Shown piece after piece: positions 3,889 through 33,165 of a stretch of 33,165 bases of DNA. The notes under the pieces are model-generated. The model saw only the letters and a list, made by a program, of their open reading frames with translations, ran no database searches and had not been told where the DNA came from. Origin of the DNA: Xenococcaceae cyanobacterium MO_167.B27 (GTDB lineage Bacteria; Cyanobacteriota; Cyanobacteriia; Cyanobacteriales; Xenococcaceae); assembly GCA_030065935.1 (NCBI GenBank), contig JASJCP010000042.1, positions 1-33,165 on the forward strand, given 5' to 3'. A program made the translations under genes and the position numbers. Position 1 is the stretch's first letter, and every line of letters begins with the position of its first letter.

Positions 3889-3931
3889 TTGTTATTAGTT
3901 ATTAGTCATTGGTCATTTGTTATGGAGGATA

Positions 3932-4072
3932 AAGTAATAAGTAATAAGTAATAAGTATTATTTCTCCCCAATCCCCCAGTCTCCCCAATCTCCCCAATCT
4001 CCCCAATCTCCCCAATCTCCCCAATCTCCCCAGTCCCCCAAGTCCCCCATTCCCCATTCCCCATTCCCCAAG
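3932..4072. repeat. Composite repeat: AATAAGT heptamers followed by CCCCAATCT nonamers
   Basis: 3932-3960 holds tandem AATAAGT units. 3964-4072 is an almost pure C-rich strand with about a dozen CCCC runs, mainly as the 9-bp unit CCCCAATCT. The minus strand therefore reads GGGG-AGATT repeatedly, a pattern that meets the usual G-quadruplex rule of four G-runs with loops of 1-7 nt. It lies immediately downstream of def. A related composite lies at 6190-6293. Confidence 0.85.
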
Positions 4073-6077: not shown

Positions 6078-6189
6078 TAGTCTAATAATGCACCGCAATA
6101 TTAATTAAGTACCCAGGCAAAATTATTTACACATTTTTAGCGTCAGGTGTTACCTATTCCCTATTCCCAAGGATGAAGCATGATGAATT

Positions 6190-6293
6190 AATAAGTAATA
6201 AGTAATAAGTAATAAGTATTACTTCCCCCCACTCTCCGCCGTCCCCCAGTCCCCCAATCTCCCCAGTCCCCCAAGTCCCCAAGTCCCCATTCC
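6190..6293. repeat. Composite repeat: AATAAGT heptamers followed by C-rich array
   Basis: 6190-6220 holds tandem AATAAGT, followed at 6223-6293 by CCCC-rich sequence built from CCCCAGT, CCCCAAT and CCCCAAGT units. Order and content match the composite at 3932-4072, in the same orientation, so def and dnaA are bracketed by related cassettes. The rest of the 330-bp dnaA/DUF4399 gap (6078-6407) shows no gene and no convincing DnaA-box cluster. Confidence 0.8.
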
Positions 6294-6407
6294 TTATCCT
6301 CACTATGTAATTTATTCTGCACAGCTATTAGGGTCAGTTAGGAGATTAAACAAGACTTATCCCTTTGTGTCAAAATTATTAAATATTACTTAAATCAACC
6401 AGATATT

Positions 6408-13007: not shown

Positions 13008-13595
13008 TTACTTATTCATATTTGCTTGTAACTGGTTGATTATTTGTTTTAGACCCTGAATAAAAACCTGAAAGCTTTTAGAATTATTGCTACCCGGATC
13101 AAGATGTTTTGCGATCGCTCTACTTCCAGTTATTGGTTGATAATTTGGTGCAATCTTTCTTAATTCTTGTTTAGGAGAGCCAATATTGTCTGGATTTCTA
13201 TATTTTGCTTTCTCTTGTAATCTAGCTAATTTTCCCGACTTAATTTTTAATCCCTTTTCCACAGCAACTAAATCTCCTAAAAACCATGACTCTAGTTCAT
13301 GACAAGGAATTCTAATTAATGTATCGGGTCTATTTGCTTTTTGACATAATTGCAATAATTGTTGTTTAATTTTAAGGCAATCACCACTATCTTTATCTCG
13401 AAGAATAATAAATTTTGTTGGTTTGGGAAATGCTTTTAATTTTCTAGGAATAGACTTTTCTAAATCTTGCTTACCCTCGTGAGGAATACATTTATAAGTA
13501 ATCTTGTCAGGAATTATTTTTGGTAATAATATTTTCAGCATCTCTTTCATAGAAGGTTCCTCTAGAAGAAAAATAATTTGGTAATAATAACTCAT
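13008..13595 (-). CDS. DUF4276 family protein (Toprim-like), partner of the upstream AAA ATPase
   Basis: The 195-aa protein shows the DUF4276 pattern: FLLEEPSMKEML (9-20, acidic pair E12/E13), ILRDKDSGDC (64-73, D67/D69/D72) and IPCHELESWFLGD (96-108). An early Glu followed by a D-x-D in a strand-loop context is the Toprim arrangement, so metal-dependent nuclease or related activity is plausible but unproven. Its start ATG overlaps the stop of the ATPase gene (TAATG), which implies coupled translation. Family knowledge: DUF4276 genes often sit next to AAA_21/AAA_15 ATPases in phage-defence-like contexts. Confidence 0.85.
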   Translation of the reverse strand: MSYYYQIIFLLEEPSMKEMLKILLPKIIPDKITYKCIPHEGKQDLEKSIPRKLKAFPKPTKFIILRDKDSGDCLKIKQQLLQLCQKANRPDTLIRIPCHELESWFLGDLVAVEKGLKIKSGKLARLQEKAKYRNPDNIGSPKQELRKIAPNYQPITGSRAIAKHLDPGSNNSKSFQVFIQGLKQIINQLQANMNK

Positions 13596-14779
13596 TATGG
13601 ATTAGCATCTCCAAATAATCCTTGTTTCCAAAGATAACCAGGGAAATCTCCTTCCTTTACTAAGCCTTTCAGAATTTCGTCCTCAGATGCTTTATAAATA
13701 TTAGTTATTCCCGATTTCTTTTCTAACCAATAAATATTGTCTAACTCCACAGCATTAATAAAATCTGGGGAATGAGTCGTCACAAAAACTTGTCCTTCTT
13801 TCCTAGTATATGCAGCAAATTCTTCTGCTAGTTCAGATAATAAAGAAGGATATAATTGATTTTCTGGTTCTTCTACACATAGAAGAGGATGGGGATTAGG
13901 ATCGTATAATAATACTAGATAAGCAAACATTTTGATTGTTCCATCTGAAACATATCTAGCAATAAAAGGGTCTTTAAAAGCACTATCTTGAAACCGCAAA
14001 ATTAGGCGACCATCTTCTGTATTTTTAGCTTCTATTTGAGATACACCAGGAACTCTTTGTTTCATTTTTTCCAAAACAGTATTAAAAATATCTGGATAAC
14101 TTTCATATAAAAATTGAGCAACTAGGGGTAAGTTATCTCCAGTTTTTGATAAATGTTCCGCATAACCAGCATCTTTAATACCTCTAGCATCAGTAATATG
14201 AAAATCTGATACGTACCAATTTTCTATTAATAATCTAAAAGCACTTGCAGCCTTAAATCTTTTAAATTGCCCTAATCCTTTAATCGCAAGAATATCTTTT
14301 GATTCTAAGGTTTGTTCTTCCCTTTGTAGTTCTTCATCAGGTTTATCGAAATCTTCTTCATTAAGAATCGCATATCCTTGACCGTATTGAAAATCTAGAA
14401 AATGAAAAGGAGAACCATAAGAACCTCGTTTATAACGTAATATCTCTCGTTTCACTACAGGTCTATTTTTTTCTTGTCCAATTTTTAAAACATAAGTCAC
14501 TAATCTTTCTTTATCTATGATTTTCATCCGAAATTTTATTTCAAATTCTATATCCTCATTTTCATGTCCTCTGGTAATAACCTCTTTATAACCACCTCTA
14601 ACTTGCAAAGCTTGACGAACATTATTTTTTAAAGCATCTCGTAAAAATCTAAAAACATCAAAAAAAGTACTCTTTCCAGTTCCATTCGCTCCCACAAGGA
14701 CACAAAACGCTGGCATATTATTAATTTCAATATTTTGCAAACAGCGATATTTTTTAATTTTTAATGATTCTATTCTCAT
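13595..14779 (-). CDS. AAA family ATPase (AAA_21/AAA_15, OLD/SMC-like)
   Basis: This 394-aa ABC-type ATPase has an SMC-like head: MRIESLKIKKYRCLQNIEI start, Walker A GANGTGKS (30-37), signature-like YVSDGTIKMF (276-285), Walker B PLLCVEEPE (298-306) with the catalytic Glu, and H-loop VFVTTHSPDF (331-340). The middle insert (about 110-270) is mixed charge and lacks a long coiled coil. Toprim is absent from this chain and is probably supplied by the overlapping DUF4276 gene, like a split OLD nuclease. The likely role is an ATP-gated effector or sensor against phage or plasmid DNA; this is inference. No HIP1 site occurs in the gene. Confidence 0.85.
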   Translation of the reverse strand: MRIESLKIKKYRCLQNIEINNMPAFCVLVGANGTGKSTFFDVFRFLRDALKNNVRQALQVRGGYKEVITRGHENEDIEFEIKFRMKIIDKERLVTYVLKIGQEKNRPVVKREILRYKRGSYGSPFHFLDFQYGQGYAILNEEDFDKPDEELQREEQTLESKDILAIKGLGQFKRFKAASAFRLLIENWYVSDFHITDARGIKDAGYAEHLSKTGDNLPLVAQFLYESYPDIFNTVLEKMKQRVPGVSQIEAKNTEDGRLILRFQDSAFKDPFIARYVSDGTIKMFAYLVLLYDPNPHPLLCVEEPENQLYPSLLSELAEEFAAYTRKEGQVFVTTHSPDFINAVELDNIYWLEKKSGITNIYKASEDEILKGLVKEGDFPGYLWKQGLFGDANP

Positions 14780-20067: not shown

Positions 20068-20796
20068 CTAATCCGCATCTTGCCACAAATATACATATTG
20101 TCCCTGTCTGAGACTGTTATGATTGCCATTACCTAAAATAATATGGTCTAGGATCGGAATCTCTAAATACTGCGCCCCTTGTAATAGCTGTTGGGTTAAC
20201 TCAATATCTGTTTGAGAAGGCTGTAAGTTACCAGAAGGATGATTGTGAGCAATAATTAGCTTGGTTGCACCTTGTTTGATTGACTCTCTGAATATTTCTC
20301 TGGGATGAACTAATGTTTCTGTAGCTGTTCCGATAGTAATTACCTGAGTTCCAATTAGGCAATTTTTGGTATCAAGCATTAATACGGCAAATCTTTCTTG
20401 CTGTTGCCACATTAAATCGTGACTCAAAGCAGCAGCAGCAGCAGTAGGACTATCAATTGAGGCTCGTTGATTGGGGCGAAACTGAAAGGTTCTTTTTCCT
20501 AACTCCACAGCAGCTACAATCGTGGCTGCTTTTGCTGGACCAATACCAGGAATTTCCATTAATTCTTGAGGTCTAACCTCTCGCAATGTGTCGAGGGGGT
20601 TTCTTTTATGCTGACTTAGCTGAGTTAATATATGTTGTCCCAGACCGATAGCTGATAGTTTACCTTTACCTTGACCTGTACTGAGTAGGATGGCTAAAAG
20701 TTCTGCTGTAGTGAGATTTTTAGCACCTATTTCGAGCAATCTTTCTCTAGGACGTTCAGTAGGAGGAATATCAGCAATTCTGAGGCTATAGGTCAT
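20068..20796 (-). CDS. radC: RadC family JAB/MPN+ domain protein
   Basis: The 242-aa UPF0758 protein has an N-terminal helix-hairpin-helix ([13 protein letters not shown], 81-93) and a C-terminal JAMM metal site [14 protein letters not shown] (184-197; H184, H186, D197). Despite the name, a repair role is doubtful in the family; the metal site suggests a hydrolase. Length and motifs are intact, which matters because Tn554 elements can use radC as a target and this copy is uninterrupted. Confidence 0.93.
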
Positions 20797-25610: not shown

Positions 25611-25724
25611 TACCTATTACCTATTCCCTATTCCCTATTACCTCTTACCTATTCAAAAGTCCCAAAGCTCCGGATGTAATAACAATCAATCACCAATCCC
25701 CATTCCCCAATCCCCATTCCCCCC

Positions 25725-25793
25725 GGGAGGAGACTTAATAGATCTAGGTATTGAACCCAAAATAGATCGGTTTTCTAATGAAGTCTCCTTCCC
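25725..25793. repeat. Inverted repeat, 12-13-bp arms
   Basis: GGGAGGAGACTT (25725-25736) and AAGTCTCCTTCCC (25781-25793) are complementary with one extra base. The loop contains two ATAGATC motifs. The layout is similar to the 66-132 repeat. Confidence 0.6.
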
Positions 25794-25803
25794 GCCCCAT
25801 TCC

Positions 25804-26268
25804 CTATTCCCTATTATTTTCACTCAGGTTTAAGATATTTTTTGCTATCTCTAATTGAATTGGCATTACTGATAAACGATTGCCTTTTTTCACTAGTAAC
25901 AATTCATCTCCACTATAGTTTTGCTTGAGGTTACTTAAATAAATGGGTTGGGAATATTCTTTAACAAATTCTACTGTAACTGTATGCCAACGGGGTGCAT
26001 CTTGAGTGGATTTTGGGTCATAATATTTGCTGGTGCGATCAAATTGGGTAGGGTCGATGACATTAGTTTCAATAATTTTCATTAATCCCACAATACCAGG
26101 TAATTTTGTATTGGAATGATAGAAAAAAGCCATATCTCCTGACTTCATTTGTCGTAAAAAGTTTCTCGCTTGGTAATTTCTGACACCATCCCAAATTGTT
26201 GTTTTATCTGCTGCTAAGTCTTGAATGCTATAAGTCTTTGGCTCAGATTTCATTAACCAATAATTCAT
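25804..26268 (-). CDS. EVE domain-containing protein
   Basis: The 154-aa single-domain protein of the PUA-like EVE family contains MNYWLMKSEP start, WDGVRNYQARNFL, DMAFFYHSN and PRWHTVTVEF, which match the THYN1-like EVE fold. EVE domains bind modified bases in DNA or RNA. Its start is 6 bp after the stop of the FAD oxidoreductase gene, so they form an operon. The cellular substrate is unknown. Confidence 0.92.
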   Translation of the reverse strand: MNYWLMKSEPKTYSIQDLAADKTTIWDGVRNYQARNFLRQMKSGDMAFFYHSNTKLPGIVGLMKIIETNVIDPTQFDRTSKYYDPKSTQDAPRWHTVTVEFVKEYSQPIYLSNLKQNYSGDELLLVKKGNRLSVMPIQLEIAKNILNLSENNRE

Positions 26269-27522: not shown

Positions 27523-28746
27523 TTAACTAGTAACAATTTTTGTTTGATACCATTTTTTAGCATCATTGGTGATGGATTTATTCACTTCTTTCCAAGTTAA
27601 TCCTGCTGCTTCTAATTCTGCAACACTTTCTTTCTGAATATCGAGAGAGATCCATTTAAGAAAGTTACCAATTTTCTTGATATCATATTCTCCATCACAA
27701 GCTTCTGTGACTGCTTGTAATAACCTGGCTTCGGTCACAAATAGTGCGGTAAATTCTGCAATATTTTGGACTTTTTCGGGAGTAATCGATACTGGGGTTT
27801 TAGTTTTGACTACCTGATGTTTAATTCCTTTGGCTTTAAATATAAGGTCAGTATATTTATCTCGCTCTACTACTTTGTCAGTGTCAGGATACATTACTAA
27901 ACCTTCCCCAACCCCTTCAATTCCAAAAGTAGCTTGTACCCAAGGATCGAGCTTTTCAACATCTTCCACCATGTTGTTAATAGTATCAGCAGCATCCTGT
28001 AATTGTCTTTCATTACCAAAATTAATAGTAACTGGCTCACCATAAAAAGGTAAAACAAAAATATCTGGATGTTCTGGTACAAAGTCTTGGATTTTTTCAG
28101 GACGTATTTCTAGTTTTTTAGCAGTGGTAATATTATCACCTATTTGAATCGCAAAAACAGCGAATATTTTGCGTTCTAGTCGAGAAATAGCAACCCCTTT
28201 TTGAATATTGTTACCGCACCATTCACCAAAGATAGTAATATTTTCTGTACTTCTTAAGGCTGTAAAGTACTCCAAATTAGCATTTACCCAAGTTGCAAAA
28301 CCAGCATTATCTGATTGCGGGTTAATAATCTGGCTTCTTTTTTGAGCAGCGACTTTTCCTTCAGTAGTAACTTGTACTCCTGCATTAGTACCATGCAATT
28401 TTATTTTGGCACGATAAGTTATTTTTACCGCATTACCTAAAATATCTAAGTTACGACGTACATTATGTAAAAGTTCAATACTTGTCCATTTTTGAAATGG
28501 TAAATTTTCTTTGGTATTAACTAATTCTTGTTGACAGTAAATTTCAGATAAATCACTACCTAATTCTGCTGTAACTATTCCTAATGCCATCCCGTAAGAA
28601 TAAACACCACGTAGTTTAGAAGGCTTGATTTTTGTACCATCTTTTAACACTGAATCAACTAAAGCTACAGCTACAATATCACCTACTTGATAAGTGTTTT
28701 CTAAATTAGCTACTATCTGAACTTCATCACGATTAGGTGCTTGCAT
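27523..28746 (-). CDS. RNA ligase family protein, probably N-terminally altered
   Basis: The 407-aa protein has a complete nucleotidyltransferase set: motif I KLHGT (116-120; K116 would be adenylated), motif Ia QKRS (135-138), motif III FGEWCG (173-178), IIIa FAVFAI (195-200), motif IV EGVGEGLVMY (277-286) and V FKAKG (303-307). Residues 20-60 look like an N-terminal OB module with VGDIVAV and KLRG, as in the Naegleria-type (Rnl5) and DRB0094-like ligases, but relatives usually have about 15-30 more residues first. The ATG lies next to an IS200/IS605 right-end hairpin and no other start is available, so the true N-terminus may be lost. ATP-dependent joining of RNA ends is likely. Confidence 0.85.
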   Translation of the reverse strand: MQAPNRDEVQIVANLENTYQVGDIVAVALVDSVLKDGTKIKPSKLRGVYSYGMALGIVTAELGSDLSEIYCQQELVNTKENLPFQKWTSIELLHNVRRNLDILGNAVKITYRAKIKLHGTNAGVQVTTEGKVAAQKRSQIINPQSDNAGFATWVNANLEYFTALRSTENITIFGEWCGNNIQKGVAISRLERKIFAVFAIQIGDNITTAKKLEIRPEKIQDFVPEHPDIFVLPFYGEPVTINFGNERQLQDAADTINNMVEDVEKLDPWVQATFGIEGVGEGLVMYPDTDKVVERDKYTDLIFKAKGIKHQVVKTKTPVSITPEKVQNIAEFTALFVTEARLLQAVTEACDGEYDIKKIGNFLKWISLDIQKESVAELEAAGLTWKEVNKSITNDAKKWYQTKIVTS

Positions 28747-28749
28747 TTT

Positions 28750-28790
28750 TTGACAGTCCCTCGCTCCTTGACGAGGGATTCTTCTCGACT
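28750..28790 (-). other. IS200/IS605-like right end with hairpin
   Basis: On the minus strand CCCTCG and CGAGGG form a stem (28758-28763 with 28772-28777), followed by TGTCAA. This layout matches right ends of cyanobacterial IS605 elements; the same segment would encode the end of the TnpB guide RNA (omegaRNA). It lies 3' of the tnpB fragment and 5' of the RNA ligase ATG. Confidence 0.6.
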
Positions 28791-29076
28791 AAAGCAAAAC
28801 TGCTAAAGAAGGAAGCTTTTTATCCTGACTGCTGCCCACAGCCAGCTTTTTAATTAGTACGGCACTGTTATAGTCCCTATCGCAACTCAAAGTGCATACA
28901 TCGCAGTAATGCCAACGCTCGGAGAGTGTTTTACTTACTCGGTTTAAGCAACCACTGCAATACTGAGAAGTGCCTCTAGGATTAACCTTGATTATTCTAG
29001 TTCCATATTTTTGAGCTACTTGAGATAGTATCTGCACAAAGTTAGCCACCCCATTATCGCTCCAAGACTTATTCAT
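28789..29076 (-). pseudogene. tnpB: TnpB (IS200/IS605 family) C-terminal fragment
   Basis: Only the last 95 or so residues of a TnpB RNA-guided nuclease remain: KYGTRIIKVNPRGTSQ, zinc ribbon YCSGC and YCDVC, and CDRDYNSA, the third RuvC acidic site. The first two RuvC motifs and the N-terminal domain are missing. The frame runs about 14 codons further upstream without a start, then hits a stop. It is thus a dead fragment. No tnpA (Y1 transposase) is present. Confidence 0.85.
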
Positions 29077-29160
29077 CCCTGACTTTGATTTATCTCGTCT
29101 ATAACGTACACAACGTAATTACAGAAAGCAATTGACATTGTGGAAGTGTTACACGACATA

Positions 29161-29203
29161 AAAAAATGCTACTCCATCATCATAGCAATTGAGTAGCATT
29201 TTC
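29161..29203 (-). terminator. Rho-independent terminator after the tnpABC operon
   Basis: On the minus strand AATGCTACTC pairs with GAGTAGCATT and is followed by a run of T. It begins directly after the tnpC stop codon, so it ends the tnpABC transcript. Confidence 0.85.
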
Positions 29204-29204
29204 T

Positions 29205-30194
29205 TTATTCTTGATTTCGCTTTTGCAAATATTCCAACGTCCATCCTTTTTCTATCATTGTGGTTAAAGGTGTCCATTCGCCAGTTGATTCCATAACCAG
29301 GATTCCATCTTTAGTACCTTGACTGGCTTGTACAATTCCTTGGTCTTTGGCTAACTTAAACCATGAGGAGAAAGTATCAGTAACTTGAGTCAATTGTCTT
29401 TCTTCATTGGTCAAATTTGGAGTCCAACCTTCTTCTAATGCTGTTCTCAGTAATCCAGCTTTTGATTTAACTTTTTTATCAGTAGCTAGATATTCTTCTA
29501 CTGCCGAGATAGCGTTATTAACCTCTTGTTGTGTAGAAGATGAAATAATTTTCTTCAACGTAGAATTTAATCTAATTCCTAGATTAGATAATTTGGCTTT
29601 TAAACTATCATTAATTGGAGTATCGGTTACAGAATGTTTGAGTTTCTGACTGATAGGAGTAACTTTAGGATTACTTTCAAGTAATTTGCTTTGACAAACT
29701 GATAATTCATTCTTAGTAGATTCAAGTTCAGCTTTGAGCTTTTTAATTTCTTCTGCTTGCCTAATAGTTTCCTGTTTTACACGGTCAAATAAATCTAATT
29801 TAGTTCCTATTTGGTAAAGTTCGCCAGTCATTTTCTCGTTCTGTTTCTTTAACTCTTTTTTCTCCCATTCAAGAGTGTTAATACGTTCCCGTAATTGCTT
29901 AATCATTACCTGCTTAGACTTCTCTGAAGCGGTTTGAGGTCTAGTTAATTTTCTAGCACTCTTTACTTGTTGGTCGCGAATATCTTGAATGCGCTCTTTG
30001 ATTTCTGGATATTTGTAGAGATAACTAACGCTGACATTGGCAATTCTAGCAATAGCACCAAAAGAGACTCTTTCGTTATTTTGTAACAGTTTAGAGATGG
30101 CTTTTTCAGTACGGTCGATACAGTCTTGTTTTCTTTGTTGTTGAACAGCATTTAATTTAGCTATTCTTTGCTCCTTACCATTCATCTTACTCAT
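29205..30194 (-). CDS. tnpC: Tn554-type TnpC-like protein (DUF6262) with extended C-terminus
   Basis: The 329-aa protein begins with a basic helix and a helix-turn-helix (SFGAIARIANVSVSYLYKYPEI, 44-65), then a long coiled coil (about 95-175), as in DUF6262/TnpC of Tn554-type elements. These help the two recombinases and influence orientation. The C-terminal half (about 215-329) is not part of a classic TnpC: it has LLRTALEEGWTPN and a WTPLTTMIEKGWTLEYL end, which resembles the GW-type repeats of cyanobacterial plasmid replication-like proteins. The start overlaps the tnpB stop by 8 bp. Confidence 0.8.
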   Translation of the reverse strand: MSKMNGKEQRIAKLNAVQQQRKQDCIDRTEKAISKLLQNNERVSFGAIARIANVSVSYLYKYPEIKERIQDIRDQQVKSARKLTRPQTASEKSKQVMIKQLRERINTLEWEKKELKKQNEKMTGELYQIGTKLDLFDRVKQETIRQAEEIKKLKAELESTKNELSVCQSKLLESNPKVTPISQKLKHSVTDTPINDSLKAKLSNLGIRLNSTLKKIISSSTQQEVNNAISAVEEYLATDKKVKSKAGLLRTALEEGWTPNLTNEERQLTQVTDTFSSWFKLAKDQGIVQASQGTKDGILVMESTGEWTPLTTMIEKGWTLEYLQKRNQE

Positions 30195-31950
30195 CTCCTC
30201 CAGAAACTATGTCTTTATTTCCAGATTCGAGGGTAGTGATAATTTTATTTAGGTTATTTCTAACTTTAGTATTCATTTCTGCGTGGCGTTTCCATCCTTT
30301 TTCTTCAGCATTTTTGACCAGCTTTTCTGTTTCTATAAGATGTGCTTTGTGCTGGTCTAAAAACTCCAGGGTTGTACGAAAATCACTACAGGTAAGACAA
30401 GCATTAGCATGAGGAAATTCTCCTAATACGATGGGTCTAGCGCATGAACCATTGGGTAAAGATTGAGCTAATACTTTTTTCTTGAGAAGATGTAAGTCTA
30501 AGTCATTATCTAATTCTGGCGTTGTAGATTCAACTACTTCTCCAGCTACATTAACTACTCTACTATCGTGATATTTGGCTATTTCTTGTTTTAAAGTTTT
30601 GTCATGAATATGTGCATAAACTGATGTCATAGTTGGAGATGTATGACCCAAATAACGTTGAATAATATGATGCGGTACTTCATTATTAATCATTCGTGTG
30701 CCAACTGTATGACGAAACTGGTGACTCTGAAAAATCCAAGGTTGACCCGAATTATCACAGATATTGAATTCTTCAGCTAAATTTTTTAAATAACTAATAA
30801 AACTTTTGTCATACATTACTTTTGGTTTGGGTCTAAACCTATGGCGATAACCTGGAGGTTCTTGCTTTTTTGCACAAAAGAGATAGTTAAAAGTTTTGTT
30901 ATCAAAAGAATCTCTTATGTATTGCTTTTGTTCTTGAATTACTGCTGCTAATTCTTGAGAAATTGGTAGAGTAGTTTCACATTTTATTTTCCCACGCATA
31001 AACTGAATATACCAATCACCTTTTGCATCTTGTCTTAGGCAATTTATAGGTAAATTTAAAAGTTCACTAACTCGTAGTCCACATTCTTGTATAACTAAAA
31101 CCATTCTCATGATTTGTTCTGGTAATGCGTCTAAATGTTGATTAAGTTGCTGCATTACCTCTTCAGGAATATATCTAGGAAGCGGTCTATTATGCTTGGG
31201 GAAATCTTCTCTTAAAATTAGTCCTGCTGGGAGTTCAAACCATTGATTAGCTGTTCCTACATTAAATAAAGTATTTAACATACTTAAGCGATGAGCTTTT
31301 GTAGAAGAAGATAATCTCTCACTTAAATACTCAAGATAATCAACAATAAATTGTCTATCTATTTCATGAATTCCGTTTAAAAAAGAATATTTTTCAGCAA
31401 TAAATTCAGATAAACCATTCAATTCTGAAATATAGCCTGATAAAGTCTGAAACGATCTATTACTAGCCATATATCTAATAAATTTTTTCGCAATATCTTT
31501 TAACCATTGCTGTTCTATATAAACAAAAATCAATTTTGTTAAAGACCTATGTTTAGGAGTAGCAACTCCTAAATCTGACGCTAACCAAACATCATCAGAT
31601 AATGGTAAGTCTTTTTCATACTTACCGTGCATTGGATTGAGGTTAAAAGAACGGTTGCATTTTTTGCATCTATATCTTTGTCTTCCGTCTTTAGTTTTTC
31701 CTGCTTTCCAACATTGATTATTCCCACATTCAGGACATTGCAAACCTAGTTTAATACAATCTAAATTTGTTAATTCTTTTATTCCTGGAATAAAATGTCT
31801 TTTACAATTTTTGCAGTAATACTGTCTTCTGCCTTTATCAAATCCTTTTCTTCTATAGTCACTTGCTCCGCAATGATGGCAAGTAACCGAATTATCATCT
31901 ACCTTAGTTAAAGGTATTAGTTTTTTATCAGAACTTTTATTCGCTTTCAT
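30187..31950 (-). CDS. tnpB: Tn554-type TnpB tyrosine recombinase with two N-terminal zinc ribbons
   Basis: The 587-aa integrase has two InsA-like zinc ribbons: CHHC/CKNC (C24, C27, C46, C49) and CPEC/CKKC (C72, C75, C95, C98). The catalytic domain carries R293 (ECGLRVSE), H410-x-x-R413, H436 and nucleophile Y445 (TSVYAHIHD). The tail has the Tn554 TnpB Cys/His signature CARPIVLG, HANACLTCSDFRTT and H534. It should cut and join transposon ends together with TnpA. The start overlaps the end of tnpA by 14 bp, so translation is coupled. Confidence 0.9.
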   Translation of the reverse strand: MKANKSSDKKLIPLTKVDDNSVTCHHCGASDYRRKGFDKGRRQYYCKNCKRHFIPGIKELTNLDCIKLGLQCPECGNNQCWKAGKTKDGRQRYRCKKCNRSFNLNPMHGKYEKDLPLSDDVWLASDLGVATPKHRSLTKLIFVYIEQQWLKDIAKKFIRYMASNRSFQTLSGYISELNGLSEFIAEKYSFLNGIHEIDRQFIVDYLEYLSERLSSSTKAHRLSMLNTLFNVGTANQWFELPAGLILREDFPKHNRPLPRYIPEEVMQQLNQHLDALPEQIMRMVLVIQECGLRVSELLNLPINCLRQDAKGDWYIQFMRGKIKCETTLPISQELAAVIQEQKQYIRDSFDNKTFNYLFCAKKQEPPGYRHRFRPKPKVMYDKSFISYLKNLAEEFNICDNSGQPWIFQSHQFRHTVGTRMINNEVPHHIIQRYLGHTSPTMTSVYAHIHDKTLKQEIAKYHDSRVVNVAGEVVESTTPELDNDLDLHLLKKKVLAQSLPNGSCARPIVLGEFPHANACLTCSDFRTTLEFLDQHKAHLIETEKLVKNAEEKGWKRHAEMNTKVRNNLNKIITTLESGNKDIVSGGDE

Positions 31951-33040
31951 TACTTTGTTCTCTTCGCTGCAAATATTGTTGATATTCTGCTTTCAAATCA
32001 TCAGTAAGCAGATGAACATAAGTGTTAACTGTAGTTTGAATATCGCTATGTCCTAATCTTTTTTGGACATAACTCATATCCCAACCTGCTCTGACTAAAT
32101 TAGTCGCGTGGCTGTGTCTAAGTAGGTGAGCAGTAGCATAGATACCAGTCTTCTTTCTGAGGCGACGAAATAGGCTATCTACTGCGGAATAAGTTAATGG
32201 TGTTCCTGGTTCTACTTTGTGACTCCAGATAGAAACAAATACATAGTCTGAGTCAACATCTTCTGGATATTCATCAATTAAATAATCAGAAAAGAACTTC
32301 ATTAATTCTTTGTTGACGTGGATAGTTCTGTCTCCACTTTTGGCTCTAGCACCATTAAAATTATCAAGTCTATTTTTTACATTAATCTCATTAGTTCCTC
32401 CTGTAACAAAATCCTCAATCCGTAGTCCTAAAGCCTCGCCAATACGCATTCCTGTCTCATAAAGCAAACAGATTAAAAACTTATCTCTAACGTGCTTACA
32501 AGCATTGATTAGAGTTTTTACTTCATCATCATTTAGACAACCAGGAAAAGTTTTTGGTTCTTTGACTTTGAGTAATTTGGTTTTGTATGAATTGCCTTTG
32601 CTGATGTGATGTAGAAAAGGTTTATACTTACTTCCTTTCTGAGTTACATAACGATAATTTTCTACTCCTTCAGCCGTTCCCAAACGCTCGTGAAACTCGT
32701 AGAAAGAGGCAACAGTAGTTAAGGCATGATTTATGGTTTTCTCTGACCTTTTTGCTTGTTGTGGACGAAGTGGGATAGTTCCTGGTTGTGGATTCCTGAG
32801 CCAGTGAATAAACTCTGCTCTTTGTTCTAGATTGACCATTTTCCAATCTAAAGAGTTTTCTTTGAGGTATTCAAAGTAAAGCTTTAGATTACGAGCATAG
32901 CCAGAGATAGTGTTGGGAGAACGTTCTAAGCTGTCGAGGTAGCGTAAATACTTTGATATTGGTTCGACAGGTAGATAGTTATCATCCAACACTAACCAGA
33001 TTGTTTTGCCGTTGTCTAATTGTCCTTTCTGTACTTTCAT
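31937..33040 (-). CDS. tnpA: Tn554-type TnpA tyrosine recombinase
   Basis: The 367-aa tyrosine integrase has an N-terminal SAM-like core-binding domain (about 25-150) and a catalytic domain with R199 (ETGMRIGEALGL), H305-x-x-R308 (HLLRHSHATN), H331 (GHSDIQTT) and Y341. All catalytic residues are present. It is the first gene of the overlapping tnpA-tnpB-tnpC operon. A sigma70-like promoter lies just upstream and a long inverted repeat overlaps its -35 box. Confidence 0.92.
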   Translation of the reverse strand: MKVQKGQLDNGKTIWLVLDDNYLPVEPISKYLRYLDSLERSPNTISGYARNLKLYFEYLKENSLDWKMVNLEQRAEFIHWLRNPQPGTIPLRPQQAKRSEKTINHALTTVASFYEFHERLGTAEGVENYRYVTQKGSKYKPFLHHISKGNSYKTKLLKVKEPKTFPGCLNDDEVKTLINACKHVRDKFLICLLYETGMRIGEALGLRIEDFVTGGTNEINVKNRLDNFNGARAKSGDRTIHVNKELMKFFSDYLIDEYPEDVDSDYVFVSIWSHKVEPGTPLTYSAVDSLFRRLRKKTGIYATAHLLRHSHATNLVRAGWDMSYVQKRLGHSDIQTTVNTYVHLLTDDLKAEYQQYLQRREQSNESE

Positions 33041-33047
33041 GAAGTAT

Positions 33048-33077
33048 ATAATACATGAAGTAGAAATAATTAGTCAA
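33048..33077 (-). promoter_or_regulatory. Sigma70-like promoter for tnpABC
   Basis: On the minus strand TTGACT (33072-33077) is followed after 18 nt by TATTAT (33048-33053), about 7 nt before the tnpA ATG at 33040. A start that close implies a very short or absent leader. The -35 box overlaps the left arm of the inverted repeat at 33076-33141. Confidence 0.65.
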
Positions 33078-33141
33078 TATATTCTACGACAACTAAAATT
33101 TGAGCCTTTCGGCTCTTGTTGTTGTTGTTATAGAATATATT
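33076..33141. repeat. 18-bp inverted repeat upstream of tnpA, with inner hairpin
   Basis: Arms 33076-33093 (AATATATTCTACGACAAC) and 33124-33141 are complementary at 16 of 18 positions. Inside is a hairpin GAGCC-TTTC-GGCTC (33102-33115), terminator-like for an upstream minus-strand gene. The outer repeat may be a transposon end, recombinase binding site or operator. Confidence 0.6.
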
Positions 33142-33165
33142 TATTTGATTAGAGATAATTTGATG

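Follow-up and report, generated by a model that had tools for sequence, protein, structure and literature searches.

Tn554 of Staphylococcus aureus and its relatives are the closest described counterparts of the element reported here, a tnpA-tnpB-tnpC transposon of Xenococcaceae cyanobacterium MO_167.B27 (assembly GCA_030065935.1). According to PMC3788773, Tn554 inserts at a conserved coding sequence and has 6-bp junction sequences, and Tn6188, Tn558, Tn559 and Tn5406 of Firmicutes likewise carry tnpABC, show 6-bp junctions and occupy the same relative site despite divergence of the host protein; the target of these four is radC, and Tn6188 is described there as carrying a tolerance gene and as having no flanking inverted repeats. 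Actinobacterial Tn554-like elements encode a short and a long recombinase and often TnpC, with at least two identical copies in some genomes and a long N-terminal extension in which no domain is recognised (PMC3414803). The elements named SEs possess a further core gene, tfp, and their reported hosts are Gammaproteobacteria; in these and in Tn554-related elements, 6 bp of the donor's left flank come to lie on the right of the new insertion, and the transposition route of Tn554 is described as unresolved (PMC10214605).

The element lies in a 33,165-nt stretch, hereafter the window, which is the whole of contig C191 (JASJCP010000042.1) in a 7.02-Mb genome of 282 contigs. It shares with Tn554 the order tnpA-tnpB-tnpC and a DUF6262 domain in TnpC, but differs in having no cargo, in a target that is tnpB rather than radC, in the zinc ribbons at the N-terminus of its own TnpB, and in a TnpC of 329 aa as against 125 aa. 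From sequence comparison, we conclude that window positions 29090-33158 very probably make up a complete transposon of the Tn554 family that carries no cargo and whose target, a conserved site in tnpB, is a different and multi-copy one. At least four insertions appear to have taken place, all at one conserved position in the TnpB genes of other transposons. As element and target both have a gene of this name, we write "recombinase tnpB" for the former and "target tnpB" for the latter. Among the titles and abstracts listed from open-licence literature, none describes a cyanobacterial Tn554-type element or one that targets tnpB, which is weak evidence of absence; what looks new within this limited search is the occurrence in cyanobacteria, the use of tnpB as the site and the multi-copy habit.

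Three co-directional genes on the minus strand, all with open reading frames, overlap by 8 and 14 bp. tnpA (31937-33040) encodes a tyrosine recombinase of 367 aa (PF00589, E 1.4e-39), recombinase tnpB (30187-31950) a large tyrosine recombinase of 587 aa with N-terminal zinc ribbons (PF00589, E 1.2e-26), and tnpC (29205-30194) a DUF6262 protein (PF19776) of 329 aa with a long C-terminal extension. BLASTP against Tn554 (OL539428) gave 44% identity over 365 columns for TnpA, 38% over 464 columns for the TnpB recombinase and 37% over 109 columns for TnpC, and the PF19776 match is common to the TnpC proteins of both elements. TnpA and TnpB contain the arginine motif (GMRIGEAL and GLRVSELL, respectively), HLLRH and HQFRH, LGH and the tyrosine, and FPHANACLTC is found in TnpB. 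On the minus strand 3' of tnpC, a 10-bp stem with a T-run (29160-29200) resembles an intrinsic terminator; a consensus terminator scan with a loop limit of 8 did not list it, presumably because its loop is longer. The initial annotation, which had described an apparently intact Tn554-type module with R-HxxR-H-Y in both recombinases, overlapping genes, an HANACLTC tail in TnpB and a terminator after tnpC, is borne out on all these points, and neither recombinase carries the frameshift it had said to look for.

The gene trio, the homologous RHRY recombinases, the TnpC homologue and target-site specificity are those of Tn554-related (TnpABC) elements, and family membership follows from gene set, homology, target specificity and a footprint in relatives described below. 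RIT elements have three tyrosine recombinases, and TnpC matched only DUF6262 and no integrase family; SE/GInt elements have four core genes including Tfp/GinC, and only three genes lie between the ends of this element. Elsewhere in the genome, TnpA relatives that are full-length or nearly so occur on C2 (51% identity) and C84 (39%), with a remnant on C201. All 18 loci from named genomes in the TnpA search (18 of 18) belong to cyanobacteria.

The element measures 4,069 bp and contains only tnpABC. Its ends form a perfect 7-bp terminal inverted repeat (TTATCTC...GAGATAA) bordered by 6-bp cores, both of which read ATCAAA on the minus strand (attL, 33159-33164; attR, 29084-29089). A 100% match to window positions 33027-33165 stands at the end of contig C59, and one to 33025-33161 begins contig C86, so that the left end is shared over 135-139 bp at 100% before the sequences diverge; C59 and C86 part after the shared base 33161. 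Alignment of the left ends of nine elements delimits a minus-strand segment (33041-33158) with the TTATCTC terminus, a AACAACAACAACA run, a long hairpin (33076-33141) and a promoter-like match. The hairpin is strong (single-strand DNA fold z -6.0), whereas a structure conserved at the left end across elements is weakly supported (9 pairs, 1 changed on both sides, covariation term +0.8). The promoter-like TTGACT-18-TATTAT (10/12) is the top-scoring match of the region, which shows no excess of such matches (13, against 16.7 expected in shuffles). Of 27 loci scored, 11 have the terminus TTATSTCTYATYAAAT 118-141 bases before tnpA with 0-1 mismatches (L064, L011, L012, L013, L015, L016, L017, L023, L019, L020 and L024, four of them copies in one genome); the remaining 16 show at least 3 mismatches, their ends being of another kind or unrecognised.

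A search with the region 3' of tnpC returned seven right-end matches at six places: the window, C214, C256, C246, C201 (two) and C30. Those of the window (29090-29204, minus strand), C214, C256 and C246 are identical over 116-117 bp, up to the terminus GACGAGATAA. Beyond the core, each of the four continues into a different C-terminal half of target tnpB at the same PNGQ..KSG codons, reading KSGMNKSWSDNG in the window, NSGLNKSWADAAFG on C214, KSGLNKSWADAAFG on C256 and KAGLNKSFADAG on C246, where the frame shifts afterwards.

These junctions bear on the proposal that the module is part of a bigger transposon of the Tn554 type, with the RNA ligase gene in a cargo region downstream of tnpC. Tn554 itself (OL539428) has its cargo there, and a dnaB-like gene occupies that position in G028, Calothrix NIES-4105 and others. 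However, the right terminus at 29090 has a matching inverted repeat and core, target tnpB is cut exactly there, and the same terminus recurs at three further sites, each followed by tnpB homology only, so this arrangement is extremely improbable. Since the right end at 29090 lies between tnpC and the tnpB remnant, and the RNA ligase gene (27523-28746) beyond it, the cargo of the initial annotation, including the RNA ligase side, is rejected; its expectation of ends without terminal repeats likewise fails against the 7-bp inverted repeat. Its idea of site-specific insertion is sustained by the same tnpB codons at four of the six right ends. It was also correct that radC is intact and that another target had been used: radC (20068-20796; NCBIfam radC, 268 bits) is whole, 8.3 kb from the element, and the insertion is in tnpB. 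The boundaries themselves were located by comparing several insertions within one genome. A fixed chromosomal locus, as synteny would indicate, was ruled out, as the same ends stand at several places.

The interrupted gene in the window is an IS200/IS605-type tnpB, of which the C-terminal half occupies 28789-29083 on the minus strand (PF07282, E 9.9e-16). Its N-terminal half lies outside the window, at the end of contig C59 (...LAIEDLKIRNM...VPNGQAS). Two uninterrupted homologues match both halves: L160 of genome G001, of the same genus (85% identity with the N-half on C59, 87% with the C-half in the window), and L161 of G017 (77% and 79%). Joining the short flanks around the core gives the in-frame PNGQASKSGMNKSWSDNG. 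Alignment of the window C-half with the solved TnpB 8bf8 starts at residue 7 of the former and residue 294 of the latter, and the cut falls between the IEDL part and the DRDYNSA part of target tnpB, which we take to hold the second and third RuvC catalytic residues, respectively. At least 150 PF07282 matches are present in the genome (150 of 222 candidates scored). Among 60 loci of this genome that we examined, the NGQ motif is limited to a tnpB subclade; motif patterns matched 8 of the 60, the L103 match and the second L130 match being in unrelated frames, and uncut genes with the motif or a near form are L130, L131, L143 and L153, of which L131 is interrupted by an internal stop, while the open frames containing L143 and L153 are short. 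Of 30 PF07282 loci, the 27 whose proteins were examined show no NGQ motif close to the catalytic end, and the count of the core hexamer in these 30 loci returned no rows.

On C59, an IS200-like Y1 transposase, of which at least 79 residues are present, is encoded on the strand opposite the tnpB N-half. The host insertion sequence (IS) may thus have been mobile, and an element that entered one tnpB once could have been carried along by its IS200/IS605 host, which would make the tnpB junctions passive copies. We regard such passive spread as scarcely credible, as the tnpB flanks are different genes: the C-half of the window shares ~36% identity with those of C214 and C256, the latter two share 84%, and that of C246 is closest to another lineage. 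The element ends are identical while the flanks diverge.

Because the right ends are identical, C214, C246 and C256 may each carry a full copy that was collapsed by the assembler; this assumes that identical copies were so treated. Contigs break at the element ends and the body was assembled once, so the contig ends could instead be chimeric, or the right ends of C214, C246 and C256 could be solitary ends to which no element is attached, which would make the several-copy reading spurious. That account is very unlikely: the two halves of the window copy, once joined, are in frame and correspond to a single gene in each of two other genomes, the window runs through the right junction, and in G028 the whole arrangement is on one contig. 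A relic that is fixed and no longer mobile is suggested by the decayed copy on C201 and the diverged end on C30, but the three genes are open and four of the right ends show no difference across 116-117 bp, and we therefore consider a relic unlikely, if less so than an assembly artefact. The tnpB position was read directly at the four right junctions of this genome and at both junctions of G028; the presence of a full element at each right junction, as well as the choice of target and the mode of copying, is what we infer from the junctions.

Both junction patterns were run against 388 genomes of the order. Exact matches to the right-junction pattern numbered five, four in this genome and one in G028, all in tnpB; at up to 1 mismatch, there were 9 matches versus 5 for the reversed control. 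The left-junction pattern, at up to 2 mismatches, matched only C59, C86 (one mismatch) and G028, with 0 control matches. The G028 element, whose TnpA is 63% identical, occupies the same tnpB codons with both junctions on one contig and tnpB on either side; its core is AGCAAA on both sides, and ~3 kb follow tnpC.

The cores carry information on the donor. In Calothrix sp. PCC 7716, six loci were found: L014 and L026 are of a 5.4-kb type with other ends, and four are copies of a second type. Over 4.04 kb, L015, L016 and L017 are 99.9-100% identical to one another; both ends of L023 match theirs at 100%. The attL/attR cores of the second type are ACTCAG/ACCCAG in L017, GTTAAG/ACTCAG in L023, ATTGAG/GTTAAG in L016 and TGGGAG/ATTGAG in L015. 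No copy has equal cores, and three of the four attR cores are the attL of another copy, giving the donor chain L017, L023, L016, L015. The chance of at least 3 such matches is ~6e-6 (AG fixed, four free equiprobable bases), a rough value because the targets resemble each other. This pattern is the fingerprint described for SEs and Tn554-related elements in PMC10214605, and thereby supports family membership through relatives. Three of the four copies lie in TPR-like coding sequence: flank peptides exceed the cut-off for TPR_12 in L016 and match TPR models with scores short of the cut-off in L017 and L023, and L015 sits in unnamed sequence, with no Pfam family in the read-through of its right flank and no open reading frame of at least 100 aa at the junction. 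In L023, ~1.9 kb of tnpB-tnpC are replaced by ~1.3 kb with an ISL3-type transposase gene (L023 11717-13014 versus L015 11717-13666), and this replacement rules out a simple deletion. The attL core of L023 reappears as attR of the intact L016; L023 either lost its genes after donating or moved in trans.

In the MO_167.B27 genome, attR is ATCAAA at three of the four sites and attL is ATCAAA at C59. Equal cores fit the donor-footprint rule as well as simple duplication, so that G006 (see below), G028 and the C59/window copy do not distinguish the two, which only Calothrix does cleanly. ATCAAA stood at none of 12 counted unoccupied sites (11 in other genomes), the count covering the 12 of 59 loci with the K/R/N form of the motif; L160, L161, L162, L143 and L153, whose motif is without that residue, were uncounted, and none reads ATCAAA. 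The left arm of C86 has the core TCGAAA, which is also the core of the L163 and L165 sites, and its 27 bp match L165 at 96%; the C-halves of L163 and L165 are nearest that of C246 (85% and 77% DNA identity, respectively). C86 may thus pair with C246, giving attL TCGAAA and attR ATCAAA, as predicted from a C59-type donor. For two elements in relatives no donor was found. L011 has attL ATTATT and, at a right end with 2 mismatches, attR AGCATT. The attL CGCAAG and attR CTTGCG of L019 are reverse complements, and its arms are partly inverted as well, beside a long tnpB-like frame.

Several findings weigh against a several-copy transposon with a tnpB target. The exact tnpB junction occurs in only 2 of the 388 genomes, and the one-mismatch right-junction matches (G037, G344 and two in G305) are at control background. 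Two right ends of this genome, that of the decayed copy on C201 and that on C30 (88% identical), are outside tnpB. The genes of the element were assembled only once, and two left flanks stand for four right ends. One of these flanks, on C86, has only ~27 bp of tnpB-like target arm, with no tnpB further upstream, and its pairing with C246 is itself conjectural. The attR core of C256 is GACAAA, for which no donor was found. Finally, in G006, whose TnpA is the closest (91%), the element occupies GACGCAGC-CTGGAG-GCTGCC, where the two cores are equal and tnpB is absent. Identity between the G006 and window elements is 91% for TnpA, 77% for TnpC and 63% for TnpB, and their targets differ, which makes them a natural pair for mapping the determinants of target choice.

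We propose the following mechanism for the window element. TnpA and TnpB, two tyrosine recombinases helped by TnpC, would recombine at the 6-bp core. One side of the site would be the element's own end (TTATCTC or its inverse), and the other the target DNA that encodes PNGQxxKSGLNKS of the TnpB subclade (CCNAAYGGNCARG-NNNNNN). Copying may carry the left 6 bp of the donor to the right side of the new site. Insertion would split target tnpB between its IEDL and DRDYNSA parts, and the RNA-guided nuclease should consequently be inactivated. Any advantage in breaking tnpB is speculative, as against a by-product of targeting a common conserved sequence. On this reading, the element is an example of a transposon that takes as its site a conserved motif in the RNA-guided nuclease gene of another, and where a genome has several copies, their readable 6-bp fingerprints allow donor-to-copy genealogies to be drawn from sequence alone.

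More broadly, and tentatively, we suggest that cyanobacterial Tn554-type elements may have shifted from single-copy harbours such as radC to short conserved motifs of multi-copy families (PNGQ..KSG of tnpB in this genome and G028; NxGLVY of TPR in Calothrix), a possibility that we rate as somewhat short of probable. They would have become copy-number transposons that break rival RNA-guided nuclease genes and that are replicative with a donor fingerprint, some branches having a DnaB-type helicase after tnpC. Such a helicase might serve replicative transposition.

In several related elements, among them L062 (C84) of this genome (by tblastn), tnpC is followed by a gene for a DnaB-family helicase, which the window element lacks. 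The DnaB-like genes are at 10646-11959 in L013, from 13793 in L014 and L026, at 13547-14875 in L019, at 13535-14386 (contig end) in L020 and at 4869-3586 in L062; they overlap tnpC in L013, L014, L019 and L020, and Pfam identifies DnaB domains in L013, L014 and L019.

Some minor features accompany these loci. Just past the interrupted tnpB of the window, the RNA ligase (PF09414) has an N-terminal part that matches the PheT/YtpR tRNA-binding region. Outside the target arm of C86 (L059), 28 bp match, reversed, a stretch upstream of the L163 tnpB; this could be a repeat common to both or an IS end that was rearranged. Repeat-like short peptides (e.g. TPPYPSPTGEGTICSPL) are inserted in frame in the loop after IEDL/IENL in several TnpBs, namely those of L104, L111, L122 and C59 (before PNGQ). 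Dispersed short repeats at 2605-2778, 3925-4072, 6170-6330 and 25698-25819 are shared within the window and with C59 or C86.

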